Origin: Methanoculleus formosensis
GTDB lineage: Archaea; Halobacteriota; Methanomicrobia; Methanomicrobiales; Methanoculleaceae
Direction of reading: 5' to 3'
DNA length: 64,000 bases
NCBI RefSeq assembly: GCF_025384765.1
Contig: NZ_VHLL01000004.1
Coordinates: forward strand, 1-64,000
Under the pieces are notes generated by a model that had not been told where the DNA came from, did not search any database, and saw nothing but the letters and a program-made list of their open reading frames with translations. Positions 33,335 to 50,590 of this stretch are shown here, one piece after another. The translations under genes were made by a program, and so were the position numbers. Position 1 is the stretch's first letter. Every line of letters starts with the position of its first letter.

Positions 33335-36300
33335 ATGACCAAAAAAATGCATATGGCACTGTTTTGTGCAGTCGCCATCATCGGACTGTTGATATCGCCG
33401 GTTACGGCGGTAGATCCTGCAGCGGGGGAGCCTCTCTATCACCCCTTCGACTACGCGCAGGATCACCCTGATATCGACGGCGACATGATCGTCTGGGAAG
33501 ACGACCGGAACGGTCAGAAGGACATCTATTTCGGAACGATAGACGCCTTTCGGGCGAGTTCCGGTTACACCGGCGAGAGGATAACCACCGATCCGAACTC
33601 GCAGGAGAGACCGTCCATCTCGGGAGACTACATCGCCTGGCAGGACGACCGGAACGGGAACCCGGACATCTACCTCTACGAGCGCTCTACGGAGACGACG
33701 ACGCAGCTCACCAACGACACGGGCAAGCAGTGGCTGCCGGCCGTCAGCGGGAACCACGTCGCCTGGTACGACGATAGCAGCGGCAGAACCAACATCGTCC
33801 TCTACGACATCGCCGCCGGAGAGGTGAAGGACGTCATCGACTCCGACGCAAAGACGACGATCCCCGGCGGAGCGACCGAGTTCAAGCCCGCACTCTCGGA
33901 GAACTACGTCGCCTGGGTGGAAGAAGCAGACCAGAATGTCTATTATTACGACATCGCAGCCGAAACAATCGCAGGCCCGGTGTCCACGAGCACGTCTATT
34001 CAGTCCTGGCCCTCGCTCTCCGGGAGCGCCATCGCCTGGGAGGATTATCGCCATGGAGACTTCGGCGGCGAGATCTACATGACCGATCTCGACAACCCGT
34101 CCGGCGGAGAGAAGAGGATAACCAACGCCCCCGGCGATCAGGTCTCGCCGGCACTCAGCGGGAGTATCATCGCCTGGGAGGATATGCGGGACGGAAACCG
34201 GAGCATCTACATGTACGACCTCGCCACCGACGAAGAGATGTCCGTGTATCTCTCCCCGGAGCCCAATGATGAACAACTCTACCCTGCCGTCAGCGGCAAC
34301 TCGATCGTCTGGCAGAGACGCGCAACCCCCAACTCGAACCTCTACATCTTCGTCTATGAACCCGGGGCGCCGATCGAACCGGTCGTAACGACCATCGAGA
34401 TCGACCCGGAAATAACCACCGTCACAGTCAACAGCACGGTGAAGTTCACGCCAACCGTCCGCGATCAATTCAACGCCACCATGACCGGCGTCGAGATCAA
34501 CTGGACGAGCAGCAACAAAACCATCGGCACCATCGATAATTCCACCGGCCTCTTCACCGGGGTTGCCGTGGGTTTAACGACCGTCACCGCAACAGCAGGC
34601 AACGCATCTGCCTCGGCGCTCGTCACCGTCGAGGCGCCGGTAGAACCGCCGGTAGAACCGCCTGAAGTGGCGAGCATCACAGTCAAACCGCCCACGACCA
34701 CCCTGCAGATCGGTGGCACACAACAGTTCGAGGCAACCGTCCGCGACCAGTTCGACCGTGCCATGACCGGCGTCAACGTCACCTGGGCGAGCAGCAACAA
34801 GACCATCGGCACCATCGATAATTCCACCGGCCTCTTTACCGCCCTTGCCGAAGGCACGACGACCGTCACCGCGACTGTCGGCGAGATCACCGGAGAAGCG
34901 ACCGTCACCGTCAGCGCTGAAGCGCCGCCCGACCCGGTCGCAGCGCGTATCACGCTCACATCGGATAGAACCACCGCCGTGGTCAACGAGACAGTGACCT
35001 TCTCTGCAACGGTCTATGACCTGAATGACATCGAATTGCCGGATGTCACGGTCAACTGGACAAGTAGCGATCCGGCCGTCGGAACCATCAACGAGACCGG
35101 TCTCTTCACCGCGATTGGCGAAGGTACAGCGAACGTCACGGCAACGGCAGGCAACGCATCCGCCTCGGCGCTCGTCACCGTAGAAGCACTGCCCGAACCG
35201 ATTCTGGACAATCTTTATATCACCCCGTCCGGGGCCACCCTCGCGATCGGCGATACCCAGCGATTCGTCGTGACCGCCAGCGACCAGGACGGCAACGCCA
35301 TGACCAACGTCTCGGTCAACTGGACGAGCAGCGATGAGGACGTCGGAACCATCGACGAGGCCGGTCTCTTCGTCGCGCTTGCCGAAGGCACGGCGACCGT
35401 CGCCGCAACGGCAGAGAACGTAACCGCGACGGCGACCGTCACGGTCATCAACAACGAGCCCGCTCTTGCCAGCATCGCCGTCACACCGTCGGAGATCACT
35501 CTCGTTTCCAATGACACGGCAGCATTCACCGCGACCGCTCTCGACCAGTTCGGCAACGAGTTCTCCGGCATTGAGATCGCCTGGACGAGCAGTGATCCGG
35601 CCGTCGGAACCATCGATGCGGACGGGCTCTTCAACGCGGTTGCCGACGGCACGACGACCATCACCGCAACGGCAGAGAACATAACCGGAGAAGCGACCGT
35701 CACGGTCGCCACGGCGTCCTCAGGCGTCGTGGTCTCCCCGTCGACGATCACCCTGGGTGCCGGGGAGTCCCGGCAGTTCACCGTACACGGCCTGCAGGAC
35801 AACGCAGGTTCTGCTGTGGACTGGTCGTGCGATGACGAAGCCGTCGGCACCATCGATACCAACGGGCTCTTCAACGCGGTTGCCGACGGTATAGCGACCA
35901 TCACCGCAACGGCAGAGAACGAGACCGGAACCGCGACCGTGACCGTCGCATCGTCGCCGGTCGCAACCCGCATCGAGATCGAACCGGCCACGGCCACCAT
36001 TCAGCCCGGAGAGACCCGGGCGTTCACCGCGACCGTCTTTGACCAGCGCGATAGCGAGATGGACTGGATCAGGGTCACCTGGTCGTCCTCCAACCCGGAC
36101 GTCGGCACGATCGACCGCGCCGGCCTCTTTGGGGCCTTCGCCGAGGGATCGACGGAGATAACAGCATCGGCAGGCGAAGCGGCGGGAACAGCGGCCATCA
36201 CCGTCTCGACGACCGTCGTGCCTGAGCCCACCCCGGTCAACCCCGGAGGCGGCGGCGGGTCGGTAGCCTACAGCGATGGCGGCGGCGGCAGCAGCGAACC

Positions 36301-36922
36301 CACGTTCTGCGCAAGGACGTGCGAGAATCTCGCGAGCGGCCAGACCTTCACGTTCTCGGATCTGACCACCTCATCGGTGAGCAGTGTCAACATCACCGCG
36401 GCGGGTAACATTCCGCAGATGATGCTGACCGTGAAGAAGACGAACGCGCCATCTGCGGCAGAATCTCCTGCCGACGACGTCTACGAGTACGTCGCTATCA
36501 CCTCCTCATGGGTGAACCCGAGCCTGATCGGCAACGCAACAGTATTCTTCAGCGTTCCGACCGACTGGCTCGGAGCCCGCAACATGACCCCGGAGGACGT
36601 CAGGCTGATGCGCTACGCCAACGGCGCCTGGGAATCCCTGGAGACCGAGGTCGTCGGTGAAGAGAGTGGTTTGTACCGCTTCCGGGCGATCACCCCCGGG
36701 TTCTCCACCTTCGCCATCGCCGCGTCGCCGTCGAGCCTGGCGGCATCGGCCGAGGAGATAGATGTCACGCCGGAGGTCACTGAGACGCCTGAAGAAACCG
36801 GAGAGGTGACGACGGAGCCGACCGAGGCCGTCCCGGCGACGACGACGCCTGCGGCACCGCTCGTCTACGCGCCCTTCCTCGCACCGCTGGCCTTCCTCCT
36901 CTGGGGAAGAAGGAAGAACTAA
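33335..36922 (+). CDS. Giant surface adhesin, paralogue of the preceding one
   Basis: This 1195-residue protein has the same order: signal peptide (ending LLISPVTAV), propeller repeats (about 35-350), seven Big_2-type Ig-like repeats (about 360-1000), a glycine/serine linker, a PGF-pre-PGF-type domain (about 1010-1140), a Thr/Pro stalk and VYAPFLAPLAFLLWGRRKN at the end. Stretches of more than 100 bp are almost identical to the first gene, for example 34738-34860 compared with 30064-30185, suggesting gene conversion or recent repeat shuffling. The C-terminal 60 codons of the two are also nearly identical. Confidence 0.88.
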   Translation: MTKKMHMALFCAVAIIGLLISPVTAVDPAAGEPLYHPFDYAQDHPDIDGDMIVWEDDRNGQKDIYFGTIDAFRASSGYTGERITTDPNSQERPSISGDYIAWQDDRNGNPDIYLYERSTETTTQLTNDTGKQWLPAVSGNHVAWYDDSSGRTNIVLYDIAAGEVKDVIDSDAKTTIPGGATEFKPALSENYVAWVEEADQNVYYYDIAAETIAGPVSTSTSIQSWPSLSGSAIAWEDYRHGDFGGEIYMTDLDNPSGGEKRITNAPGDQVSPALSGSIIAWEDMRDGNRSIYMYDLATDEEMSVYLSPEPNDEQLYPAVSGNSIVWQRRATPNSNLYIFVYEPGAPIEPVVTTIEIDPEITTVTVNSTVKFTPTVRDQFNATMTGVEINWTSSNKTIGTIDNSTGLFTGVAVGLTTVTATAGNASASALVTVEAPVEPPVEPPEVASITVKPPTTTLQIGGTQQFEATVRDQFDRAMTGVNVTWASSNKTIGTIDNSTGLFTALAEGTTTVTATVGEITGEATVTVSAEAPPDPVAARITLTSDRTTAVVNETVTFSATVYDLNDIELPDVTVNWTSSDPAVGTINETGLFTAIGEGTANVTATAGNASASALVTVEALPEPILDNLYITPSGATLAIGDTQRFVVTASDQDGNAMTNVSVNWTSSDEDVGTIDEAGLFVALAEGTATVAATAENVTATATVTVINNEPALASIAVTPSEITLVSNDTAAFTATALDQFGNEFSGIEIAWTSSDPAVGTIDADGLFNAVADGTTTITATAENITGEATVTVATASSGVVVSPSTITLGAGESRQFTVHGLQDNAGSAVDWSCDDEAVGTIDTNGLFNAVADGIATITATAENETGTATVTVASSPVATRIEIEPATATIQPGETRAFTATVFDQRDSEMDWIRVTWSSSNPDVGTIDRAGLFGAFAEGSTEITASAGEAAGTAAITVSTTVVPEPTPVNPGGGGGSVAYSDGGGGSSEPTFCARTCENLASGQTFTFSDLTTSSVSSVNITAAGNIPQMMLTVKKTNAPSAAESPADDVYEYVAITSSWVNPSLIGNATVFFSVPTDWLGARNMTPEDVRLMRYANGAWESLETEVVGEESGLYRFRAITPGFSTFAIAASPSSLAASAEEIDVTPEVTETPEETGEVTTEPTEAVPATTTPAAPLVYAPFLAPLAFLLWGRRKN

Positions 36923-37556: not shown

Positions 37557-39731
37557 TCACTCCACGACGAAGTCGCCGTTCATGTCGGGGTGGACGTCGC
37601 ACTGGAAGTAATAAGTCCCCGGCTCGGAGGGAGCCGTGAAGGTGTAGGTGATCTCGGCCGGCCCGGTGATGACATCGCCCACGAAGATCTGCTCCGACCG
37701 GAGGGGACTGTCGTAGACCGCGACGTTGTGGGGGATACCCTGGTCCTGGTTGTCAAAGACCATCGTCACCTCCGCCCCCGCCGGCACCGTGATGGTGTTC
37801 GTGTCGAACGCGAGATTGTCGGCGGCGATGTTCACCGTCACGGCACCCCCGGCCGCCGGGGTCTCGTTCCCGGTCTGACCCCCGACCGGGGGCATGGTGG
37901 TCGGCGTGACGTTCATCGTTGCTGGCGGCGTGACATTCTCCGTTGGTGTCGGCGTGACATTCTCCGTTGGTGTCGGCGTGACATTCTCCGTTGGTGTCGG
38001 CGTGACATTCTCCGTTACCATCGGGGTCACGTTCTCCGTCGGAGCGGGGCCGTTGCCGGTGGGCGCCACGACCCGCCAGACCCGGCCGGTGCTGGTAGAG
38101 TTGTCCGGACCGCCCACATCGTTCGTCAGCACGTAGAGGTCCTGGTTGGCGTCCTCGCCGAACCCGCGCAGGAACATCCCCAGGGTCTCGTTCTCCTGGC
38201 CGGTGATGTTCACCGACTGGGCCTCCCACATAGAGTTTGCCTCAGCGGTCAGGTTTGCAGCGGACTCCGGTGCGGTCCACCCTTCCGGCGGCGTCGCGGC
38301 GAGGAGGGTGCCGTTCCCCACCGTCCGGCTGTCGCTCCAGTAGCCGAAGACGTACTTCCCTTCGAGATTCGGAGCGGCAGTGCCGCGGTAGACGTTGCCG
38401 CCGACGACGACGATGCCGAGATCACGGCCGCCCTCGAAGATGGGGCCGATCAGCGGCTCGCCCAGGTAGCCGGTGGTGTTGCAAGACTCCGGCGGGGCCG
38501 TGGTGTTGTTCGGGTCGAAACAGTGCGTGCCCTCGCGGATGTTCCAGCCGTAGTTTCCGCCGCGGTAGACGACGTCCACCTCCTCGAAGAGATTCTGGCC
38601 CGCATCGGCGACGAAGAGCGAGTTGTTGCCGCCGGAGTCAAAGGACATGTAGGCCGGGTTCCGGAATCCGTAAGCGTAGATCTCGGGCGGGATGGAGTCG
38701 TAAGCGTAGGCATCGAGGATCTCGGTCTGGTTTTCCGCAAACGGGTTGCTGGCGGGTATGCCGTAGAGGCTGCCGGCAAACGTCGTCCACGTCGGCTCGG
38801 GCGGGTTCGCGGTCCGGTTGACGGTCATGTTATCGGTCTGGTTCACCATCCCGGTCATGTTATCGGTCTGGTTCACCATCCCGGTCATGTTGTCGGTCTG
38901 ATTCCCGTCGGTAACGTTGTCCACATCGATCCTGAGCACCTTGCCGTAGATCTTCGTCAGGTCTTGGGCGTTCCCGATGCCCGGGGTGTGACCGTTCCCG
39001 ACGTCGTTCGCCCTCCCGGCATCGCCGAGCGATACATACAGGTAGCCGTCGGCCGGGCTGAAGGCGAGCTGGCCGCCGTTGTGGTTATGGTAGGGCTTGT
39101 CGATGTACATCAGCACCTTCTCAGAGGTCAGGTTCACCCGGTTCGGGTCATCGGGGTCGACCTGGAACTCGGAGATGTGGTTCGTGCAGTTCCACTCCTC
39201 GGGAGCCCCCTGGCGCAGGGGTGCGCTGTAAAAGGCGTAGACTTTGCCGTTCTCCGAGAAGTTCGGGTGGAACGCGACCGAGAGCAGGCCGCGCTCGTCG
39301 TAGGTCGGGTTGAGGTCGACCAGGTTCTCCCGGAGGTCCAGGAACGGCTCGGAGAGCGTGGTCCCGTTCGCGTCGACGGCCCAGACCACGCCGATCTGGT
39401 CGACGACGAAGAGTCGCCCGGTCCCGTCGTCGGGCGCCGTGAGCGCGAGGGGCGAAGTGAAGTTCTCCGCGACGAGTTCAAGACCGATCTCGGCCGTAAC
39501 GTTCGAGACCGTCGTCCGGGTCGCGTTGTCCTGGAGTTCCGCAGCAAGCGGGGAACCCGTGTTCGTCAGGTCCGTCGCGTTGCCGCTCATGTTCTGCATG
39601 CTTTCCATCGTCTGGTTTGAACTCTCGTTGCCATCACTGGTGTTGCTCGATCCCACCACCTGTGCACCCGCACCCGCGATGAGCGCGAGAACCAGGAGGA
39701 AGGATGCTATGACAAGGGTAACTTTTGTCAT
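37557..39731 (-). CDS. Secreted PQQ/GSDH-type sugar dehydrogenase fused to a cupredoxin
   Basis: This 724-residue protein has a signal peptide (VTLVIASFLLVLALIAGAGA), a Glucose/Sorbosone dehydrogenase-type six-bladed propeller (about 80-545; ERGLLSVAFHPNFSENGKVY, NHNGGQLAFSPADGYLYVSL, YGFRNPAYMSFD), a stalk of NVTPTPTE repeats, and a C-terminal plastocyanin-like domain (about 625-724). The latter has the type 1 copper ligands H (GIPHNVAVY), C and H (QCDVHP) and M (PDM). The family oxidises sugars using PQQ. Whether PQQ is available to this archaeon is unknown, so the propeller may serve another purpose. The copper domain could accept the electrons. It is rich in N-glycosylation sequons. Confidence 0.85.
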   Translation of the reverse strand: MTKVTLVIASFLLVLALIAGAGAQVVGSSNTSDGNESSNQTMESMQNMSGNATDLTNTGSPLAAELQDNATRTTVSNVTAEIGLELVAENFTSPLALTAPDDGTGRLFVVDQIGVVWAVDANGTTLSEPFLDLRENLVDLNPTYDERGLLSVAFHPNFSENGKVYAFYSAPLRQGAPEEWNCTNHISEFQVDPDDPNRVNLTSEKVLMYIDKPYHNHNGGQLAFSPADGYLYVSLGDAGRANDVGNGHTPGIGNAQDLTKIYGKVLRIDVDNVTDGNQTDNMTGMVNQTDNMTGMVNQTDNMTVNRTANPPEPTWTTFAGSLYGIPASNPFAENQTEILDAYAYDSIPPEIYAYGFRNPAYMSFDSGGNNSLFVADAGQNLFEEVDVVYRGGNYGWNIREGTHCFDPNNTTAPPESCNTTGYLGEPLIGPIFEGGRDLGIVVVGGNVYRGTAAPNLEGKYVFGYWSDSRTVGNGTLLAATPPEGWTAPESAANLTAEANSMWEAQSVNITGQENETLGMFLRGFGEDANQDLYVLTNDVGGPDNSTSTGRVWRVVAPTGNGPAPTENVTPMVTENVTPTPTENVTPTPTENVTPTPTENVTPPATMNVTPTTMPPVGGQTGNETPAAGGAVTVNIAADNLAFDTNTITVPAGAEVTMVFDNQDQGIPHNVAVYDSPLRSEQIFVGDVITGPAEITYTFTAPSEPGTYYFQCDVHPDMNGDFVVE

Positions 39732-39886: not shown

Positions 39887-40375
39887 TTACTCCACGACGA
39901 AGTCACCGTTCATCTCGGGGTGGACGTCGCACCGGAAGTAGTAAGTCCCCGGCTCGGAGGGAGCCGTGAAGGTGTAGGTGGTCTCGACCGGCCCGGTGAC
40001 GGTGTCGCCCACGAAGATGGCCGTGGCCGCCGAGGAGTCGGTGTAGACCGCGAGGTTGTGCGGGATGCCGTCGTCCTGGTTGTCGAAGTTCACCGTCACC
40101 TCCGCCCCTGCCGGGACCGTGATCGTCTCCGTATCGAACGCCATGATGTCGGCGGTGAGATCGATGGTCACGGCCTCGCCGCCGGTCGCGGTGGTCGCTG
40201 CCGTTGTAACGCTCATTGTCGCTGTATCGGTTTCAATCGGTGTCGTTGCCACGGGGGTCCCGGTTTCGGTCGGTATCGTCGTCGGCTGGGTGGCGTTGTC
40301 ACCCGGCGAGACACACCCTGCGGCCAGGATGCTGGCAGCGGCGACGACGAGTGCAAGGAGGAGAACAGGTTTCAT
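39887..40375 (-). CDS. Cupredoxin-domain lipoprotein
   Basis: This 162-residue protein starts KPVLLLALVVAAASILAAGC, a lipoprotein signal with lipobox LAAGC. A Thr-rich linker follows, then a plastocyanin-like domain with IPHNLAVY and YYFRCDVHPEM, giving the four type 1 copper ligands. Its last 95 residues closely match the C-terminal domain of the dehydrogenase at 37557-39731. It is therefore either a soluble electron acceptor for that enzyme or a duplicate of its domain. It acts on the outer face of the membrane. Confidence 0.85.
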   Translation of the reverse strand: MKPVLLLALVVAAASILAAGCVSPGDNATQPTTIPTETGTPVATTPIETDTATMSVTTAATTATGGEAVTIDLTADIMAFDTETITVPAGAEVTVNFDNQDDGIPHNLAVYTDSSAATAIFVGDTVTGPVETTYTFTAPSEPGTYYFRCDVHPEMNGDFVVE

Positions 40376-40493
40376 GCGGGAGACCACCCCTGACCATCTA
40401 TTTATACGTTGTCCTCCCGGGCCGGATGAAGGGAGATAAGAGGTGAGGAGTGCGGGGCAGCCCCGTTCTCTTCACGCTGGTTTGCTCCTGCAT

Positions 40494-41102: not shown

Positions 41103-41146
41103 GCGGCACCGATACTTTTTTACAACTCAGATGCGGTCACTCCCCC

Positions 41147-43057
41147 ATGACCATGGAGAGCGACAGGATATCCTACCACGACTCAGTCCGGACCGTCTAC
41201 GAACGGCTCAAGAAGGACGGCATGTCCAACGTCTGGGACCGCTACGAGGCCCAGGGCTTCGGGAACGACCCCGACAAGCGGTGCGGCTTCTGCCAGGCGG
41301 GCGCCCGGTGCGACTTCTGTTCGAACGGCCCCTGCCGGGCCGACGCAAGCCGGAACCACCGGGGGGTCTGCGGGATCAACGCCGACGGCATGGCGATGCG
41401 GATGATGCTCCTCCGGAACGTCATGGGCGCGTCGAACTACCACTTCCACGCCCAGCAGGCGGTCCGGACCCTCCGGGCGACCGCGGAGGGAAAGACCCCG
41501 TTCTCGATCGCCGAGCCGGAGAAACTCCGGACGTTTGCCGGGCGGCTCGGTATCGATGCGACCGGAAGCGACGCCGATGTCGCACTCCGGCTCTGCGACT
41601 TCGTCGAGGAGGACTTTCACCGGTTCACCTACGAACCGAGCCGGATCGTCGAGCAACTCGCACCGCCGGAGCGAAAAGAGGTCTGGAAACGCCTGGGGCT
41701 CTTCCCGGGCGGGATCTACGGGGAGACGATCGTCGTTACCGCGGCCAGCCTGACCAACGTGGATGGGTGGTACGCGAGCCACGCCATGCGGGCGATGCGC
41801 CTCGGGGTCGCGATGGCCTACCAGAGCCAGATCGTCCTCGAGTACATCCAGGACATCCTCTACGGTATCCCGCAACCGCACCCCATGCGGGTCGACCTCG
41901 GGGTGCTCGACCCCGACTACGTCAACATCCTCCCGAACGGCCACGAACCCTTCCTCGGGTTCGCCCTCATCGACCTCGCCCACGCCGACGAGTGGCAGCA
42001 AAAGGCAAAGGCAGCGGGGGCGAAGGGGCTCCGGGTCATCGCGAACATCGAGACCGGGCAGGAACTGATCCAGCGCCGGAAGATGGACAACGTCTTCTAC
42101 GGCTACACGGGAAACTGGATCATGCAGGAGGCGGTCCTCGCCACCGGGGCAGTGGACGTCTTTGCCGCCGATATGAACTGCTCCCTCCCGCTCGACCCCC
42201 TCTACGCCGAGAAGTACCACTTCAAACTGATCCCGGTCAGCGAAGTCGTGGTCTTCGAGGGCGGGACGGACCGGCTCGAGTACGCCCCCGAGGAGGCAAA
42301 GGAGCAGGCGGCGGCCCTCCTCCAGATGGGGATCGAGAACTTCAAGGAGCGGCATGCGAAGATCGAACCGATCCGCGGCCTTCCCGTGCGGGAGGCGGTG
42401 GTCGGGTTCGCCCCCGAGAGCATCGTCGCGGCGCTCGGCGGGAGCCTTGATGCGCTGCTCGGGGCGATCAAGGACGGCACCATCCGGGGCATCGTCGGGC
42501 TCGTCTCCTGCACCACGCTGCGCGACTCCGGGCAGGACATCCACACCGTCGCGGTCGCACAGAACCTGATCGCCCGCGACATCCTGGTCCTCGGGATGGG
42601 CTGCGGCGTCGCCGCGCTCCAGGTCGCCGGGCTCTGCTCACCGGAGGCGAAGGAGAAAGCCGGGCCGGGGCTCAAAGGGCTCTGCACGGCGCTCGGGGTG
42701 CCGCCGGTGCTCGGGTTCGGGACCTGCACCGACACCGGCAGGTGCGCCGACCTCCTCTTCTCGGTCTCCGACGCCCTCGGCGGGGTGCCGATCCCGGACC
42801 TCCCGGTCGCCGTCGCGGCTCCCGAGTACATGGAGCAGAAAGCGACGATCGACGCCCTCTTCGCGCTAGCGCTCGGCGCCTACACCTACGTCAACCCGGT
42901 CCCGACCGTGACCGGCGGGCCGGATCTGGTGAAACTCCTCACCGAGGACCTCCCCGGCGTCACGGGCGGGGTGCTCCACGTCGAGACGGACGCAAGAGAG
43001 GCGGCGGAGGGGATGCTCGGGCACATCGAGGCGAAGCGGAAGAAACTGGGGCTATAG
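41147..43057 (+). CDS. cooS: CODH-family (CooS-like) Ni/Fe-S protein with hybrid-cluster-type ligand set
   Basis: This 636-residue protein has the full length and fold of monofunctional CO dehydrogenase. The N-terminus has C46-x2-C49, C55, C58, C63 and C75. C55/C58/C63/C75 match the B-cluster; C46-x2-C49 is the CX2C form of the D-cluster instead of CX7C. At the active site I align H266 (NGHEP), C345 (MNC), C455 (LVSC), C486 (GMGCG), C527 (GTC) and K565. The position of the canonical ligand C295 of the C. hydrogenoformans CODH-II is E302 (NIETGQE), and residue 563 is Glu in EQK, as in hybrid-cluster protein. Database annotation would be CO dehydrogenase, but the ligand set suggests a different cluster and reaction. 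ATG 41147 and 41153 are both plausible starts. Confidence 0.8.
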   Translation: MTMESDRISYHDSVRTVYERLKKDGMSNVWDRYEAQGFGNDPDKRCGFCQAGARCDFCSNGPCRADASRNHRGVCGINADGMAMRMMLLRNVMGASNYHFHAQQAVRTLRATAEGKTPFSIAEPEKLRTFAGRLGIDATGSDADVALRLCDFVEEDFHRFTYEPSRIVEQLAPPERKEVWKRLGLFPGGIYGETIVVTAASLTNVDGWYASHAMRAMRLGVAMAYQSQIVLEYIQDILYGIPQPHPMRVDLGVLDPDYVNILPNGHEPFLGFALIDLAHADEWQQKAKAAGAKGLRVIANIETGQELIQRRKMDNVFYGYTGNWIMQEAVLATGAVDVFAADMNCSLPLDPLYAEKYHFKLIPVSEVVVFEGGTDRLEYAPEEAKEQAAALLQMGIENFKERHAKIEPIRGLPVREAVVGFAPESIVAALGGSLDALLGAIKDGTIRGIVGLVSCTTLRDSGQDIHTVAVAQNLIARDILVLGMGCGVAALQVAGLCSPEAKEKAGPGLKGLCTALGVPPVLGFGTCTDTGRCADLLFSVSDALGGVPIPDLPVAVAAPEYMEQKATIDALFALALGAYTYVNPVPTVTGGPDLVKLLTEDLPGVTGGVLHVETDAREAAEGMLGHIEAKRKKLGL

Positions 43058-43860: not shown

Positions 43861-44550
43861 ATGGTAAACGGACCCAGAGGAGCAATCCTCCAGAGAGACA
43901 GAACGTCCTATGCGATCGTGCCGAGAACACCCGCGGGAATCGTCAGCCCGGAGCACCTGGAGAGCATCGTCAAGGTCGTCAGGCGCTACGAGATCCCCAT
44001 CATCAAGATGACATCGGGGCAGCGGATGGTGCTCGTCGGGATCAAAGAAGAGGATATCGAGAACATCTGGAACGAACTCGGGATGACCGTCGGGCAGGCG
44101 ACCGCGCCCTGCGTCCACTACGTCCAGGCATGTGCGGGGACGGCGACGTGCAGATACGGCATGCAGGACTCCCTGGGCCTCGGGATCGAGGTCGAGGAGA
44201 TCTACCAGGAGATGAACCTGCCGGCAAAACTCAAGATGGGAGTCTCCGGGTGTTTCCGGTGCTGCGGCGAGAGTTACCTCCGCGACATCGGGTTGTTTGG
44301 GAGCGCAAAAGGATGGACGGTCATCTTCGGGGGCAACTCCGCCGGCCGTCCCCGGATCGGCGATGTCGTCGCAAAAGACCTCCAAAAAGATCAGGCACTC
44401 GACCTGGTCCGCCGGCTGCTCGAATACTATCGGAAGAACGCAAAACCGGGAGAGCGGACCGCACGGTTCGTCGAACGGGTCGGCTTTGACGCCATCAAAA
44501 AGGACGTCCTGACCTTCGCCCCCTACATACCGCTCGACTCCGTCCGGTAG
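43861..44550 (+). CDS. Small siroheme/4Fe-4S nitrite-sulfite reductase-like protein
   Basis: This 229-residue protein has the ferredoxin-like half-domain (YAIVPRTPAGIVSPEHLESI) and the siroheme-4Fe-4S motif C91-x5-C97 (CAGTATC) plus C131-x3-C135 (GCFRCCGES). It is about half the length of dissimilatory reductases and matches the small Dsr-like proteins of methanogens. Those proteins are of uncertain role in sulfite, nitrite or sulfur metabolism. It starts at ATG 43861 right after GGTGAGGGGG, and converges with the TrmB gene. It may pass electrons to the same substrate class as the adjacent CODH/HCP-like protein. Confidence 0.85.
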   Translation: MVNGPRGAILQRDRTSYAIVPRTPAGIVSPEHLESIVKVVRRYEIPIIKMTSGQRMVLVGIKEEDIENIWNELGMTVGQATAPCVHYVQACAGTATCRYGMQDSLGLGIEVEEIYQEMNLPAKLKMGVSGCFRCCGESYLRDIGLFGSAKGWTVIFGGNSAGRPRIGDVVAKDLQKDQALDLVRRLLEYYRKNAKPGERTARFVERVGFDAIKKDVLTFAPYIPLDSVR

Positions 44551-44553
44551 GGG

Positions 44554-45384
44554 TTACGCGGAAGGGGGCCGCACCCCTGCCTCTCCCCGCGCCGGCCCCT
44601 CGATCCGCTCCGCGGTTGCGATCATCCGGTTAACGAACTGCCGCTGGACGCAGGTGATGAACGGCAGGGTGATCACCACGGCGTTCCTGACCCCGTCCTC
44701 GCGGTAGACGATCATGCAGACCCGGTCGTCGGCGATGAAGATGTAATCGAGCAGGAACGCCGCCCCGTCCACCGAGAGCGGGGCACGGTAGACCTTCTCA
44801 AAGACGTTCTCCTGGAAGAAGGAGCAGAACGGTTTCGGGGCGTAGAGCGACGCACCCCCGAGCGGTTTTGTGATCCCGTGTTTCCCGTTCGGGAGAAGGA
44901 TGTTCACCGGGTGGTCTCTCGATGCATCGGCGATCACCCGGGCGAACTCGCCGATCTCGCCGTAGTCCAGGCAGACGACCGCGAGGTCGCGGGTGACGCC
45001 CGCGGCAAGCGACTCCGCGTGGCTCCGGATGCTCCACTCCCCCTGCACGTACCAGATCGGCGAGTTCTTCGATCGGGCGTCGAGCGAGAGGGCTTTCAGT
45101 TCCTGCACCGCCGCCGTCGCTGCGGCATCGGCCGCGCTCTTCAGGTGGCGGATGACGACGGCGGGTTCGGCCGGGATGTAGAGATAGGGATTCCCCCGCC
45201 GGACGGTGATGAAACCCCGTGCGGCAAGACCTTCGGCGATGTCGTAGACCCTCGGCCGGGGGACGCCGCTCGCCTCGTGGATCTGGCGGGCGCTCCCCTC
45301 GCCGATCCCGACGAGAGCCGCATAGACCCGCGCTTCGTACTCTGTCAATCCGAGGGTCGTCAGGTTCCGGACAAGGCCGTCCAT
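44554..45384 (-). CDS. TrmB-family transcriptional regulator
   Basis: This 276-residue protein has the TrmB winged helix (TTLGLTEYEARVYAALVGIG then ASGVPRPRVYDIAEGLAARG, residues about 8-75) and the C-terminal PLD-like regulatory domain (SPIWYVQGEWSIRSHAESLA onward). TrmB proteins sense sugars or metabolites and repress or activate nearby promoters. It is divergent from the DUF2115-cupin-NapH cluster across a 75-bp gap with an imperfect palindrome, so it may control the cluster. Confidence 0.85.
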   Translation of the reverse strand: MDGLVRNLTTLGLTEYEARVYAALVGIGEGSARQIHEASGVPRPRVYDIAEGLAARGFITVRRGNPYLYIPAEPAVVIRHLKSAADAAATAAVQELKALSLDARSKNSPIWYVQGEWSIRSHAESLAAGVTRDLAVVCLDYGEIGEFARVIADASRDHPVNILLPNGKHGITKPLGGASLYAPKPFCSFFQENVFEKVYRAPLSVDGAAFLLDYIFIADDRVCMIVYREDGVRNAVVITLPFITCVQRQFVNRMIATAERIEGPARGEAGVRPPSA

Positions 45385-46254: not shown

Positions 46255-46602
46255 ATGAACGATATGAAGATTGTTGATGTAGCAGAGGTACCGATCAGCG
46301 AAACCCCGCACCATGTCGACGCCCGGAAGATCTACGACACCGAGCACGCGAACGCGGTTGTGATCACCCTTGCGCCGGGAGAGTCGCTCAAGAAGCACAT
46401 CACCCCGGTGGACGTCTTCTTCTACGTCCTCGAGGGGACGGGGATCGTCGAGATCGGCGACGAGCGCGCGGAGGTCGGCAAGGACCACCTGGTCGACAGC
46501 CCGGCAAAAATACCGCACCGCTGGATGAACGAGAGCGACGGCACCTTCCGGGTGCTCGTGGTAAAGGTCCCGCGGCCGACGACCGGGACGAGACTGCTGT
46601 GA
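46255..46602 (+). CDS. Cupin-domain protein
   Basis: This 115-residue single cupin barrel has the two motifs as PGESLKKHITPVDVFFYVLE and DSPAKIPHRWMNESDGTFRV. The first motif lacks the usual second His (the pattern is KxH..P.D.FFYV), so metal binding is uncertain. It lies between the DUF2115 and NapH-like genes, with short spacings, and is likely co-transcribed. Confidence 0.85.
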   Translation: MNDMKIVDVAEVPISETPHHVDARKIYDTEHANAVVITLAPGESLKKHITPVDVFFYVLEGTGIVEIGDERAEVGKDHLVDSPAKIPHRWMNESDGTFRVLVVKVPRPTTGTRLL

Positions 46603-46608
46603 GCTACG

Positions 46609-47382
46609 ATGGTCGTTGAGTCAATCCCGCCTGCCGTGGGCTCCATCTATGCCCTCCTCGCTTTTGCCGCCCTTGTCTGGCTCTGGCACTCGGGCCGGTT
46701 CACCCGGCGGCGAGCAGTGCCGTTCCTCATAATCTCGGTGCTCCTCGGGTTCCTGGTCTTTGCACCGGTCTTCCCCTACCAGCTGCAGGGTCTCGTCCTC
46801 CGGGACGCGGCGTTGCTCGGGGCGCCGCTCCCCATGGCGCTCATCGGGACGCTTGCCTTCATCGTCCTCGCCTTCGTCTTCGGCCGGATCATCTGCGGGC
46901 AGATCTGCCCGGCGGGCGCCGTCCAGGAGGTCATGCACCTCGTGCCGGTGAAGAAATACAGCAGCGCCGAGAGCCGGGTCCCGGTGGCGGTCAGGGCAGG
47001 CATCTTCGTCGTCTTCCTCGCCGCCGGCCTCGGGCTCGGGATAAGCGTCCTCGGGCTCCTGGGCCTCGCGGACTTCTTCAACCTCACGGTCGCAAGCGTG
47101 TCGTTCTTCGTCTTCCTCGGGATCGTCCTCCTCTCCGCCGTCGTCTACCGGCCATTCTGCCGCTACATCTGCCCCTACGGCACCCTCCTCGCCCCCGCGG
47201 CGTCGAGGGGCGTCTACCGGCTCCGGCGGACGGACGCCTGCATCAACTGCCGGAAGTGCGAGCGGGCGTGCCCGACCGGAGCGGCGAGCCCCGATCACCG
47301 GCTCGGGGAGTGCTACCTCTGCGGCCGGTGCACGGACGCCTGCCCGGTGGAAGGGGCGCTCGTGTATGGACGGGGAAGATGA
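46609..47382 (+). CDS. NapH/polyferredoxin-type membrane electron-transfer protein
   Basis: This 257-residue protein has about five membrane helices with CGQICPAGAVQE and CRYICPYGTLL motifs on the cytoplasmic face, and ends in two ferredoxin-type 4Fe-4S motifs (CINCRKCERACPTGA and CYLCGRCTDACPVEGA). It is homologous to NapH/MauN/CcoG-like proteins, which pass electrons between quinones or ferredoxins and periplasmic or cytoplasmic acceptors. It is a reasonable electron donor for the redox proteins in this cluster. It starts 6 bp after the cupin gene. Confidence 0.88.
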   Translation: MVVESIPPAVGSIYALLAFAALVWLWHSGRFTRRRAVPFLIISVLLGFLVFAPVFPYQLQGLVLRDAALLGAPLPMALIGTLAFIVLAFVFGRIICGQICPAGAVQEVMHLVPVKKYSSAESRVPVAVRAGIFVVFLAAGLGLGISVLGLLGLADFFNLTVASVSFFVFLGIVLLSAVVYRPFCRYICPYGTLLAPAASRGVYRLRRTDACINCRKCERACPTGAASPDHRLGECYLCGRCTDACPVEGALVYGRGR

Positions 47383-47432: not shown

Positions 47433-47768
47433 ATGGCTAAAGAGAGTCGTGCAGAGTTGCAGGGGAAGGTCCTCCAGTTAGAGGAACTCGTCGCCTACCA
47501 GGACGGAACCGTAGCGAGCAGGATGATCATCAACAACCGGGCGGGGAGCATAACCCTCTTCTCGTTCGACGAGGACGAGGGGCTCTCGGAACACACCGCG
47601 CCCTACGACGCGGTGGTGACGATCCTCGACGGGGAGTGCGAGGTCTGGATCGCGGGAGCGACGCACCAGATGAAGACGGGGGAGACGATCATCTTCCCGG
47701 CAAATGTCCCCCACGCCCTCTCGGGCATAACCCGGTTCAAGATGTCGCTGACGATGATCCGGGAGTGA
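47433..47768 (+). CDS. Cupin-domain protein
   Basis: This 111-residue protein contains FDEDEGLSEHTAPYDAVVTI and PANVPHALSGITRFKMSLTM, a normal single cupin barrel with His ligands (EH and PH). It may bind a metal ion or a small ligand. It is 50 bp after the NapH-like gene and 5 bp before the next one. It and the previous cupin are different and not recent duplicates. Confidence 0.85.
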   Translation: MAKESRAELQGKVLQLEELVAYQDGTVASRMIINNRAGSITLFSFDEDEGLSEHTAPYDAVVTILDGECEVWIAGATHQMKTGETIIFPANVPHALSGITRFKMSLTMIRE

Positions 47769-48136: not shown

Positions 48137-50590
48137 TCAGGCGCTGATGGCAGCCAGCCTGCCGTCTTCGCGCACGAACAGCCAGTAGCCCTCGGTCGGG
48201 GAGAGTCCTTGATCGTCGGTCTGGTTGTTGACGATCGCCGGCCGGTAAGTCTGGTCACCCGCATCGTAGCCGACGACGTAGACCCAGATATCTTCCACCG
48301 ACCTGAGCGTCTCATCCGCGCTGCGCTCCACCAGGTCGGAGTGGCCGATGGCGTTCCAGCCCGGGCTGAGCGTCTTCAGTGCGGGTGCCCGCACCGGATT
48401 GGTGCTGAGGTTCAACTGCACGGTGGTCTCCTCGGTCGAGTAGACCCAGTATCCTTCAAGGACACTCAGGGTCTCATTCTCTCCCAGGGGCTCGAAGCCG
48501 CCGGCCGGGGTGTAGGTGTAGATTGGCCGCCCGTCGGTCTCGACATCCGCAAAGACCGACGCTGCCGTGTCGTTGCCCGGAGAGAGAGGTCTCGGGATAG
48601 AGACGAAGTTCCAGCCTTCATAGAGTTGGAGATCCATAGTCTCCTCCTGCACCGGCGGGGTCGTCGGGGTCGGAGTAACGTTCATCGTCGGGGTCGGAGT
48701 AACGTTCATCGTCGGGGTCGGAGTAACGTTCATCGTCGGGGTCGGAGTAACGTTCATCGTCGGGGTCGGAGTAACGTTCATCGTCGGGGTCGGAGTGACG
48801 TTCACCGTCGGCGTTGGAGTGACGTTCATCGTCGGCGTCGGGGTGACGTTCGTCGTCGGAGTTGGAGAAGGTGTTGGGATCGGGGAGTCCGGTGGGATCA
48901 GGACACCGTCGATCACGTAGACGATGATGTTGTTCGTGATCTGGATCTGGGTTATGACGATGATGTTGTTGATGGTCAACTGGCCGTTGTTAAACGATGC
49001 GTTGACAGTCGATCCACCCACGGTCGGCAGGGAGATCTGGCCGTCGGTCGAGTTCTCGCAGAGCATCACAAGTTCTTCGATCGTGTAGTCTCCCTGGATG
49101 ACATGATACTCAAGGATGCTGTTGAGGAGCGTCGTGTCGCCCAGGATAACCGAGAGCGTCTCGTTACCGAGTCCGTCAAACGCGTCATCGGTCGGAGCAC
49201 ATATGACGTAACTCGCGTTCTCTTCAAGACGCTCGCCGATAGTCGAGTTGTTCAGAGCCTCAACGAACGTTGTCAGGTTCTCCTCTTCCGAGAGCCCTTC
49301 AACGATCTCACGGGTGATCTCATCTCCAGGCGGTGTCACCGTCGGCGTCGGGGTGACGTTCACTGTCGGAGTCGGGGTGACGTTCACTGTCGGAGTCGGG
49401 GTGACGTTCACTGTCGGAGTCGGGGTGACGTTCACTGTCGGAGTCGGGGTGACGTTCACTGTCGGAGTCGGGGTGACGTTCACTGTCGGAGTCGGCGTGA
49501 CGTTCACCGTCGGAGTCGGCGTGACATTCACCGTTGGCGTCGGGGTGACGTTCACCGTTGGCGTCGGGGTGACGTTCACCGTCGGAGTCGGCGTGACGTT
49601 CACCGTCGGCGTCGGCGTCACATTTTCGCCGCCGACGGTGACGTTCACCGTCTCGAAGACGAGCGGGATGAGCGGCGTGTGGTCGTTGTTGACCACCTGG
49701 ACCGAGAGGTTGTGCTCACCCTCCGTCACGTTCTCCCATGTGTGGGAGAGGTTCGTGGAGATGACATAACCACCGAACTCCGGAACCGCGGGTTCGCTCT
49801 CATTCGTCGGCACCACGGCGTCAAGGTAGTAGTGCAGGTGCCCCTCGCCCGGCGCGTTCTCCTGCCCGGTCGGCTCCACCAGCGTAAAGTTCGTCAGGTT
49901 CACTTCAACCGTCACGTTCCCGGCCGGGAGGGTCGCGCCATCCATGGGCTCGACAATGGTGACGTTCGCTTCGGCAGTCGGTGTCGGGGTGACGTTCACC
50001 GTCGGAGTCGGAGTAACGTTCACCGTCGGTGTCGGGGTGACGTTCACCGTCGGTGTCGGGGTGACGTTCACCGTCGGCGTTGGAGTCACGTTCACCGTCG
50101 GGGTCGGCTCGGGTGTTACAACCGCCTCAAGAACGGTCACGTTGAGTATCACCGTGTACGCAGCATCCTCAATGGTGTGTTCCGGTGGCCCGTAGGAGAA
50201 GGTCAGGTTGTCCCCGTCGGTCACGTTCGTCACCGCAGGTCCGGTCGTGCCCTGCTCGCCGTTCACCCAGTAGGTCCAGTTGTTCGGCGTTTCATTCAAA
50301 ATCTCGTTTTCGATACCCGCAATCGATAAAATACTGAGATTTCCCTCTTCCAGAGGCAGGTCTTCAGCAACCTGATACTCAAAGGCTCCGCGGTTCGAGG
50401 CGTCATCGAGTGCTCCAAGCACTGTCGCCTGCGGCACCTCGTACGTTTCGGTGCTGTTTAGCGGTGTAATGTTCACAGTCACATCAGGATCCAGTTCGAC
50501 AGGGCCTATTCCAATCGTGACCGCTACACTTGCAGCGGAGAGCGACAGGATAAGGACGATGCACAAACTGAACAATACAGGTCGTCTCAT
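48137..50590 (-). CDS. Fasciclin-domain surface protein with NVTPTPTV repeats
   Basis: This 817-residue protein has a signal peptide (LFSLCIVLILSLSAASVAV) and a DUF4430-like domain (about 35-150). A first block of NVTPTPTV repeats is followed by a beta domain (about 205-325) with EGHLHYYLDA. A longer repeat block comes next, then a FAS1 domain (about 430-580, GERLEENASYVICAPTDDAF), a third repeat block, and a C-terminal domain (MDLQLYEGWNFVSIPRPLSP onward). Every NVT in the repeats is an N-glycosylation sequon. The start ATG 50590 follows AAGGGGGGATATGT. It is likely an S-layer-associated adhesin. Confidence 0.85.
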   Translation of the reverse strand: MRRPVLFSLCIVLILSLSAASVAVTIGIGPVELDPDVTVNITPLNSTETYEVPQATVLGALDDASNRGAFEYQVAEDLPLEEGNLSILSIAGIENEILNETPNNWTYWVNGEQGTTGPAVTNVTDGDNLTFSYGPPEHTIEDAAYTVILNVTVLEAVVTPEPTPTVNVTPTPTVNVTPTPTVNVTPTPTVNVTPTPTVNVTPTPTAEANVTIVEPMDGATLPAGNVTVEVNLTNFTLVEPTGQENAPGEGHLHYYLDAVVPTNESEPAVPEFGGYVISTNLSHTWENVTEGEHNLSVQVVNNDHTPLIPLVFETVNVTVGGENVTPTPTVNVTPTPTVNVTPTPTVNVTPTPTVNVTPTPTVNVTPTPTVNVTPTPTVNVTPTPTVNVTPTPTVNVTPTPTVNVTPTPTVNVTPTPTVTPPGDEITREIVEGLSEEENLTTFVEALNNSTIGERLEENASYVICAPTDDAFDGLGNETLSVILGDTTLLNSILEYHVIQGDYTIEELVMLCENSTDGQISLPTVGGSTVNASFNNGQLTINNIIVITQIQITNNIIVYVIDGVLIPPDSPIPTPSPTPTTNVTPTPTMNVTPTPTVNVTPTPTMNVTPTPTMNVTPTPTMNVTPTPTMNVTPTPTMNVTPTPTTPPVQEETMDLQLYEGWNFVSIPRPLSPGNDTAASVFADVETDGRPIYTYTPAGGFEPLGENETLSVLEGYWVYSTEETTVQLNLSTNPVRAPALKTLSPGWNAIGHSDLVERSADETLRSVEDIWVYVVGYDAGDQTYRPAIVNNQTDDQGLSPTEGYWLFVREDGRLAAISA
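49326..49620 (-). repeat. 24-bp minisatellite encoding NVTPTPTV, about 12 units
   Basis: Tandem 24-bp units such as GTCGGGGTGACGTTCACTGT differ by synonymous changes at third positions (GGAGTCGGGG, GGCGTCGG). A second array of six units lies at about 49978-50110, and a third with TMNVTPTP units at about 48665-48870. Copy number in such arrays tends to vary between strains. Confidence 0.8.

Follow-up and report, generated by a model that had tools for sequence, protein, structure and literature searches.

Group D-1 of clade D of the CO dehydrogenases (CODHs) was described in 2018-19, and a structure followed in 2022. According to Inoue et al. (PMC6344411), D-1 proteins have glutamate at the position of the first C-cluster cysteine, another glutamate two residues before a lysine, a type III D cluster, and tyrosine in place of the acid-base histidine, and the likeness of their active site to that of the hybrid-cluster protein (HCP) was remarked upon in the same paper. 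CooS-V (CODH-V) of Carboxydothermus hydrogenoformans (PDB 7B7Q, 7B7T, 7B95, 7B97 and 7B9A), as characterized by Jeoung et al. (PMC9311411), contains a Ni-free [4Fe-3S-nO] cluster that restructures with redox state, while a persulfide opens and closes a channel; it neither oxidizes CO nor reduces CO2, its turnover of hydroxylamine is very slow (kcat 0.13 s-1), and no reduction of NO was detected. Its cluster potentials are about 300 mV below those of HCP, which the authors took as a hint of a different role. In the same study, replacing C295 of CODH-II by glutamate left the enzyme deficient in Ni and without the ability to oxidize CO. The EPR signals of CooS-V lie at g 1.98/1.90/1.80 in the oxidized state and at g 2.12/1.96/1.78 in the reduced state. 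HCP (hydroxylamine reductase, TIGR01703, classes I to III) has the same ligand composition as this group: one histidine, two glutamates and four cysteines.

The window, by which we mean the entire 64,000-nucleotide stretch of Methanoculleus DNA analysed here, encodes a 636-residue protein (41147 to 43057, forward strand) that family models name the anaerobic CO dehydrogenase catalytic subunit: it scores 696 bits against the curated CooS family TIGR01702 (cut-off 478) and also matches PF03063. Its best match in the PDB is CooS-V (7B7Q, 3e-199; 52% identity over 623 positions), whereas C-cluster CODHs match far less well (1e-114 or weaker). An earlier note on this DNA had proposed that a CODH scaffold with B- and D-cluster cysteines carries an HCP-like ligand set, and had named CODH-V of C. 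hydrogenoformans as a parallel; the proposal is supported and the parallel is correct, every hybrid-cluster ligand of CooS-V, whose crystal structure has such a cluster, being matched one-to-one as follows (the numbering of H266, E302, C345, C455, C486, C527 and E563 was confirmed codon by codon).

41111 to 41123, forward: stretch rich in T and resembling a TATA box, some 25 nt upstream of the start codon (read by eye)
41147 to 43057, forward: CooS-V type CODH-like protein (clade D, structural group D-1), 636 aa (PDB and family matches, identity, model)
41282 to 41293, forward: C46 and C49, cysteines of the subunit-bridging [2Fe-2S] type D cluster, equivalent to C38 and C41 of CooS-V (alignment; role from PMC9311411)
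41309 to 41371, forward: C55, C58, C63 and C75, cysteines of the [4Fe-4S] B cluster, equivalent to C47, C50, C55 and C68 of CooS-V (alignment)
41438 to 41440, forward: Y98, replacing the CODH acid-base histidine (H93), as in CooS-V (alignment; a group D-1 trait in PMC6344411)
41942 to 41944, forward: H266, the hybrid-cluster histidine, H259 of CooS-V (alignment, codon check)
42050 to 42052, forward: E302, E295 of CooS-V and C295 of C-cluster CODHs (alignments, codon check)
42176 to 42181, forward: N344-C345, N337-C338 of CooS-V, in which the asparagine hydrogen-bonds a cluster water and the cysteine is a cluster ligand (alignment)
42509 to 42511, forward: C455, C449 of CooS-V (alignment, codon check)
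42602 to 42604, forward: C486, C480 of CooS-V (alignment, codon check)
42725 to 42727, forward: C527, C521 of CooS-V, the redox-switching persulfide cysteine (alignment, codon check)
42833 to 42841, forward: E563-Q-K565, from E556 (Fe3 ligand) to K558 of CooS-V, pairing with WYEQK of HCP (alignments, codon check)

Translation may in fact begin at M3 (41153), since residue 3 is where the alignments of most homologues start, and the TATA-like stretch upstream may be the gene's own archaeal promoter, giving a leaderless transcript. The D-cluster spacing, C46-x2-C49, is that of the CooS-V type [2Fe-2S] or type III motif; as a diagnostic by itself this motif was rejected, since 6 of the 12 C-cluster CODHs compared from the same order have it. 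All the D-1 traits are nevertheless present together (E302, E563-Q-K565, C46-x2-C49, Y98), and because of this and the correspondence with CODH-V, the protein is best classed, by its sequence, as a new member of the known CooS-V group rather than a new kind of enzyme.

Alignment of NIETGQE with ICCTGNE of ChCODH-IV (6ELQ) and MCCTGNE of the Thermococcus CODH (6T7J) confirms that E302 occupies the position of C295. Rescue by a nearby cysteine is ruled out: the residue before E302 is Ile301, where ChCODH-IV and the Thermococcus CODH have cysteine, and no compensating cysteine was found. In both sequence and model, no nearby cysteine stands in for C295, and E302 and E563 are not displaced from the cluster pocket. 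The AlphaFold model (pLDDT 89.3, pTM 0.92) superimposes on CooS-V (7B9A/7B7Q) with a TM score of 0.96 and an rmsd of 1.6-1.7, and on the C-cluster CODHs listed with TM scores of 0.91-0.94, all below CooS-V. The earlier note's statement that the family usually has HEK at the C-terminal site does not hold among the sequences compared, in which only ChCODH-IV has the histidine and the others have serine (SQK or SEK).

Each of the 109 close relatives compared (67-97% identity) has E302, E563, Y98, N344, C46, C49 and R54; these relatives come from archaea (Methanoculleus, Methanosarcinaceae, ANME-1, Asgard archaea, Thermoplasmata and Bathyarchaeota) and bacteria (Actinomycetota, Chloroflexota, Desulfobacterales and WOR-3); E302 and E563 are therefore not the product of chance or sequencing error. 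The 12 C-cluster CODHs compared from the same order all have His, Cys, Gln and Ser at positions 98, 302, 344 and 563, and 30 further C-cluster CODH loci from the same phylum, partly overlapping these 12, likewise have Cys at 302 and Ser at 563. In a tree, CooS-V and the D-1 set fall on one side of a branch and the C-cluster CODHs on the other, with SH-aLRT support of 100 on both sides, although the CooS-V branch is long and the named C-cluster references number two. Archaeal and bacterial D-1 proteins are intermixed, a pattern that would fit old transfers between the domains, but many of the deeper forks are weakly supported, and contaminated metagenome-assembled genomes may also contribute. 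Relatives of the protein were not found in viral contigs. Four CODH homologues elsewhere lie within open frames of 1375-1407 aa (G199:C19:178386-180242, G208:C35:6378-8219, G217:C47:36689-38542 and G234:C173:7467-9311), possibly CooS fusion proteins, in one family of the phylum.

These comparisons make it very improbable that the protein functions as a Ni,Fe CO dehydrogenase whose C-cluster has been altered. Its CODH fold and curated family assignment could be so read, a review (PMC4652020) credits two monofunctional CODHs of Methanosarcina acetivorans with helping to remove CO, and PMC6344411 reads genetic results from that organism as a possible part for D-1 in CO oxidation. Against this, C295 and the acid-base histidine have been lost in 109/109 relatives, and CooS-V, with the same ligands, has neither Ni nor CO activity; the CODH-II variant described above points the same way. 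The C-cluster ligand set is incomplete, and the acid-base pair of histidine and lysine persists only as K565. Among the neighbouring genes looked at, none was recognized as a Ni maturation gene (cooC, cooJ or cooT).

To examine the relationship to HCP, the protein was aligned by profile with ten HCPs from Euryarchaeota (97.6% probability); in this alignment H266, C345, C455, C486, C527, E563 and K565 match HCP columns. The glutamate of the HCP cluster pairs not with E302 but with E306 of TGQE, which all the CODHs compared keep. Six of the seven cluster ligands thus align, while E302 agrees with HCP in composition and structural role, as in CooS-V, and not in sequence position: E302 as the sequence counterpart of the HCP glutamate is ruled out by this alignment. 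Because the HCP glutamate aligns with E306, E302 appears to be a convergent ligand, as PMC10502027 states for CooS-V. Against TIGR01703 the protein scores 26.3 bits, far below the cut-off of 360.8.

The genome that contains the window (G000) has two PF03063 genes, the one described here and an HCP on another contig; family searches found neither CdhA nor a C-cluster CooS in it. CdhA was found in 0 of 35 Methanoculleus genomes, and the 'CODH' annotation of the gene here is therefore misleading. The D-1 gene is present in 20 of the 35, each without a second CooS, and on a WOR-3 chromosome (L052) it is the sole member of its family. The generalization that CooS-V types occur only together with another CODH fails on these 20 genomes and L052. 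The gene is thus no ground for inferring CO metabolism; metabolic models may credit Methanoculleus with a capacity for CO oxidation that is very likely absent.

The D-1 gene is missing from the other 15 of the 35 genomes, and in two relatives it is interrupted (G007:C1:1049652-1051556 and G135:C17:43218-44857; one has a TAA stop, and the other is split, with TGA), perhaps because some relatives can do without the gene or are losing it, or perhaps because of faulty assemblies. Such losses are what would be expected of a drifted protein of little function that is kept as a scaffold, yet about 70% identity between archaeal and bacterial members and the invariance of the cluster ligands in 109/109 relatives indicate strong constraint and make this explanation scarcely credible.

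The genes downstream of the CooS-V type gene in the window are:

43861 to 44550, forward: small sulfite/nitrite-reductase-like siroheme protein (PF03460 and PF01077; family matches)
44554 to 45384, reverse: TrmB-family regulator, on the opposite strand, its link to the CooS-V type gene uncertain (family matches)
46255 to 46602, forward: small cupin, type A, with homologues adjoining D-1 genes in Actinomycetota and HCP genes in Euryarchaeota (homologue loci)
46609 to 47382, forward: 4Fe-4S membrane protein of NapH/YccM-like type, with a cupin gene on either side (family matches)
47433 to 47768, forward: small cupin, type B, with homologues adjoining D-1 genes in Asgard archaea and Methanoregulaceae (homologue loci)

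The CooS-V type gene, the small siroheme-type protein, the two cupins and the NapH-like polyferredoxin all lie within 7 kb of one another in the window. The cupins are 3-4.5 kb downstream of the CooS-V type gene, with an opposite-strand gene in between, and the ferredoxin homologue of this genome is on another contig. There (locus L170, G000:C6:28000-46000), a ferredoxin homologue of the D-1-adjacent type is followed about 1 kb downstream by a small cupin-like ORF (C6:37008-37820 and C6:38738-39154). Within the same order, type B cupin homologues with 77-82% identity also adjoin HCP genes. The NapH/YccM-like protein is a possible electron path; its gene is closely linked to D-1 mainly in Methanoculleus-type loci. 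Two other genes were rejected as conserved partners: the siroheme gene, which is near D-1 in 3 of 8 Methanoculleus-type loci and at none elsewhere, and a DUF488 gene directly upstream, found in Methanoculleus-type loci only. Elsewhere in the window are a surface-type protein of 1195 aa with repeated Ig-like units such as TSSDPxVGTID (33335-36922, forward); a long secreted-type protein rich in NVTPTPT repeats (48137-50590, reverse), whose repeat-rich style recurs at 37557-39731 (reverse); and a nearly identical cupredoxin-like C-terminal stretch shared by the proteins at 37557-39731 and 39887-40387 (reverse) (YYFQCDVHPDMNG / YYFRCDVHPEMNG).

A survey of 72 D-1 loci outside Methanoculleus-type genomes indicates which neighbours recur. 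Homologues of the window cupins are present at 19 loci, 17 of them within 500 bp and 16 of those on the same strand; a 4Fe-4S ferredoxin that we call FrdX-like, a name based on its position next to hcp rather than on a sequence match to Desulfovibrio FrdX, is near 24 (20 within 1.5 kb); and seven loci have both. At 4-8 kb from the 72 D-1 genes neither was found, the space searched for cupins being about 0.4 Mb at that distance and 0.07 Mb within 500 bp. These counts leave out a weak cupin-like neighbour on a very long branch at locus L105, and several neighbour 'clusters' that are antisense shadow ORFs were ignored.

The same partners accompany HCP. Cupins are encoded 9-429 bp downstream on the same strand at 15 of 30 euryarchaeal HCP loci; from the phylum of a Desulfobacterales genome (G439), 16 of 30 HCP loci have the ferredoxin, and no cupins turned up at these 30. 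Two euryarchaeal HCP loci have the ferredoxin as well. By comparison, 0 of 30 C-cluster CODH loci have the cupin and 0 of 30 the ferredoxin within flanks of about 1.5 kb. Fisher tests, which ignore relatedness and taxon differences and are a guide only, compare D-1 with C-cluster loci at p = 0.0013 for the cupin and 0.0006 for the ferredoxin, and HCP with C-cluster loci at 6e-6 for the cupin and 2e-6 for the ferredoxin. Both cupin types include CooS-adjacent and HCP-adjacent members, the cupin at 47433 being closest to an HCP-adjacent one. Thus, the D-1 relatives have partner genes in common with HCPs rather than with real CO dehydrogenases, and this is new: a published survey (PMC13056359) reports that clade D neighbourhoods lack a clear pattern, that of PMC6344411 linked D-1 to COG1063 and HypA/HypB rather than to the cupins and FrdX-like ferredoxin found here, and the main text of neither mentions a cupin.

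Published transcriptomes connect HCP loci with stress from NO and nitrite. A cupin gene beside hcp in Desulfovibrio desulfuricans is NO-induced along with hcp (4.4 and 3.17 in the table of PMC5701242). The HcpR regulon of Desulfovibrio takes in hcp-frdX as well as an operon for a putative sulfite/nitrite reductase and a polyferredoxin; nitrite is reported to induce both in D. vulgaris (PMC545781). A small Acididesulfobacillus protein, which shares both siroheme-reductase domains with the one encoded at 43861, increases along with Hcp on nitrate (PMC10949509). The likeness of the gene set in the window to these HCP stress sets is suggestive only.

On the strength of the gene context shared with HCP, we argue for an HCP-like stress role: quite probably, the protein is a CooS-V type hybrid-cluster enzyme that does not oxidize CO and acts as a ferredoxin-fed, HCP-like reductase in a nitrosative or oxidative stress set. 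The proposed mechanism combines the sequence, ligand set, fold prediction, family-wide invariance, HCP context and C-cluster-free genome described above with the cluster, redox switching, channel gating and lack of CO activity reported for CooS-V. The protein would be a homodimer of CODH fold whose [2Fe-2S] D cluster bridges the subunits. Two B clusters of the [4Fe-4S] type would accompany it, and the site of the former C-cluster would be taken by a Ni-free Fe/S/O hybrid cluster on the ligands numbered above. By analogy with CooS-V, CO would not be oxidized; electrons would pass by way of the D and B clusters to the hybrid cluster, which they would reduce; the persulfide sulfur of C527 would move into the cluster, opening a gas channel; a small oxidized substrate would bind and be reduced, NO, hydroxylamine or some related N-oxide being likelier than peroxide; and the cluster would return to its oxo form after turnover. 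The cellular slot would most likely be that of HCP, in a stress set that includes the FrdX-like ferredoxin and small cupins. A part in NO or nitrite stress, ferredoxin as the donor and any role of the cupins as accessory proteins would follow from this context.

The earlier note's suggestion that the substrate may be hydroxylamine, NO or peroxide instead of CO is supported only indirectly. The main doubt about NO reduction is that the sole purified member of the group, CooS-V, showed no NO reductase activity (PMC9311411), and, given also its slow turnover of hydroxylamine, the native substrate may be something else. For peroxide or an oxygen species in place of N-oxides, one may cite the link between a [2Fe-2S] D cluster and oxygen tolerance (PMC9311411) and the Lokiarchaeal D-1 loci (L066 4656-5906 and L083 6497-7849), where genes for a flavodiiron-type protein and rubredoxin reductase are close by, hinting at an oxygen/NO defence island; however, these loci are closely related to one another and so offer few independent cases, and the peroxidase activity of HCP is slow (PMC10210160), so that we consider such a substrate quite unlikely.

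Instead of a detoxifying reductase, the hybrid-cluster protein might be a regulator or a low-potential sensor of redox state or gas. In favour of this are the poor catalysis of CooS-V and the reversible rearrangement of its cluster as the redox state changes (PMC9311411), and regulatory or redox-sensing roles have been suggested for clades C and D from their gene context (PMC13056359). We nonetheless think a sensor unlikely: redox-gated opening of the channel favours a reductase (PMC9311411), electron carriers and cupins make up the neighbourhood, with an Rrf2 regulator at only 6 loci, and HCPs, which have the same neighbours, are reported to be NO reductases in bacteria. D-1 CooS proteins and true HCPs could be interchangeable catalytic parts of one conserved stress-response set, containing a small cupin and an FrdX-type ferredoxin, in archaea and bacteria. 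The cupin would then work alongside them, perhaps handling iron for the hybrid cluster, sensing NO or oxidants, or delivering substrate; this is a conjecture worth entertaining that, on balance, we doubt. The neighbours in common with HCP provide a testable list of partners for CooS-V proteins.

Compared with known systems, the protein shares its fold, its B cluster and five of six C-cluster ligands with C-cluster CooS CODHs and keeps K565, but differs from them in having Glu for C295, Tyr for the acid-base His and E563 for Ser or His. It corresponds to CooS-V at every cluster; unlike CooS-V, it belongs to a tight sub-branch that spans archaea and bacteria apart from CooS-V, and unlike that of CooS-V, its genome has no other CODH. 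HCP lacks the bridging D cluster that this protein possesses, and has cupin and ferredoxin neighbours in common with group D-1; these shared neighbours suggest that a CODH scaffold bearing a hybrid cluster has been fitted into the cellular slot of HCP.
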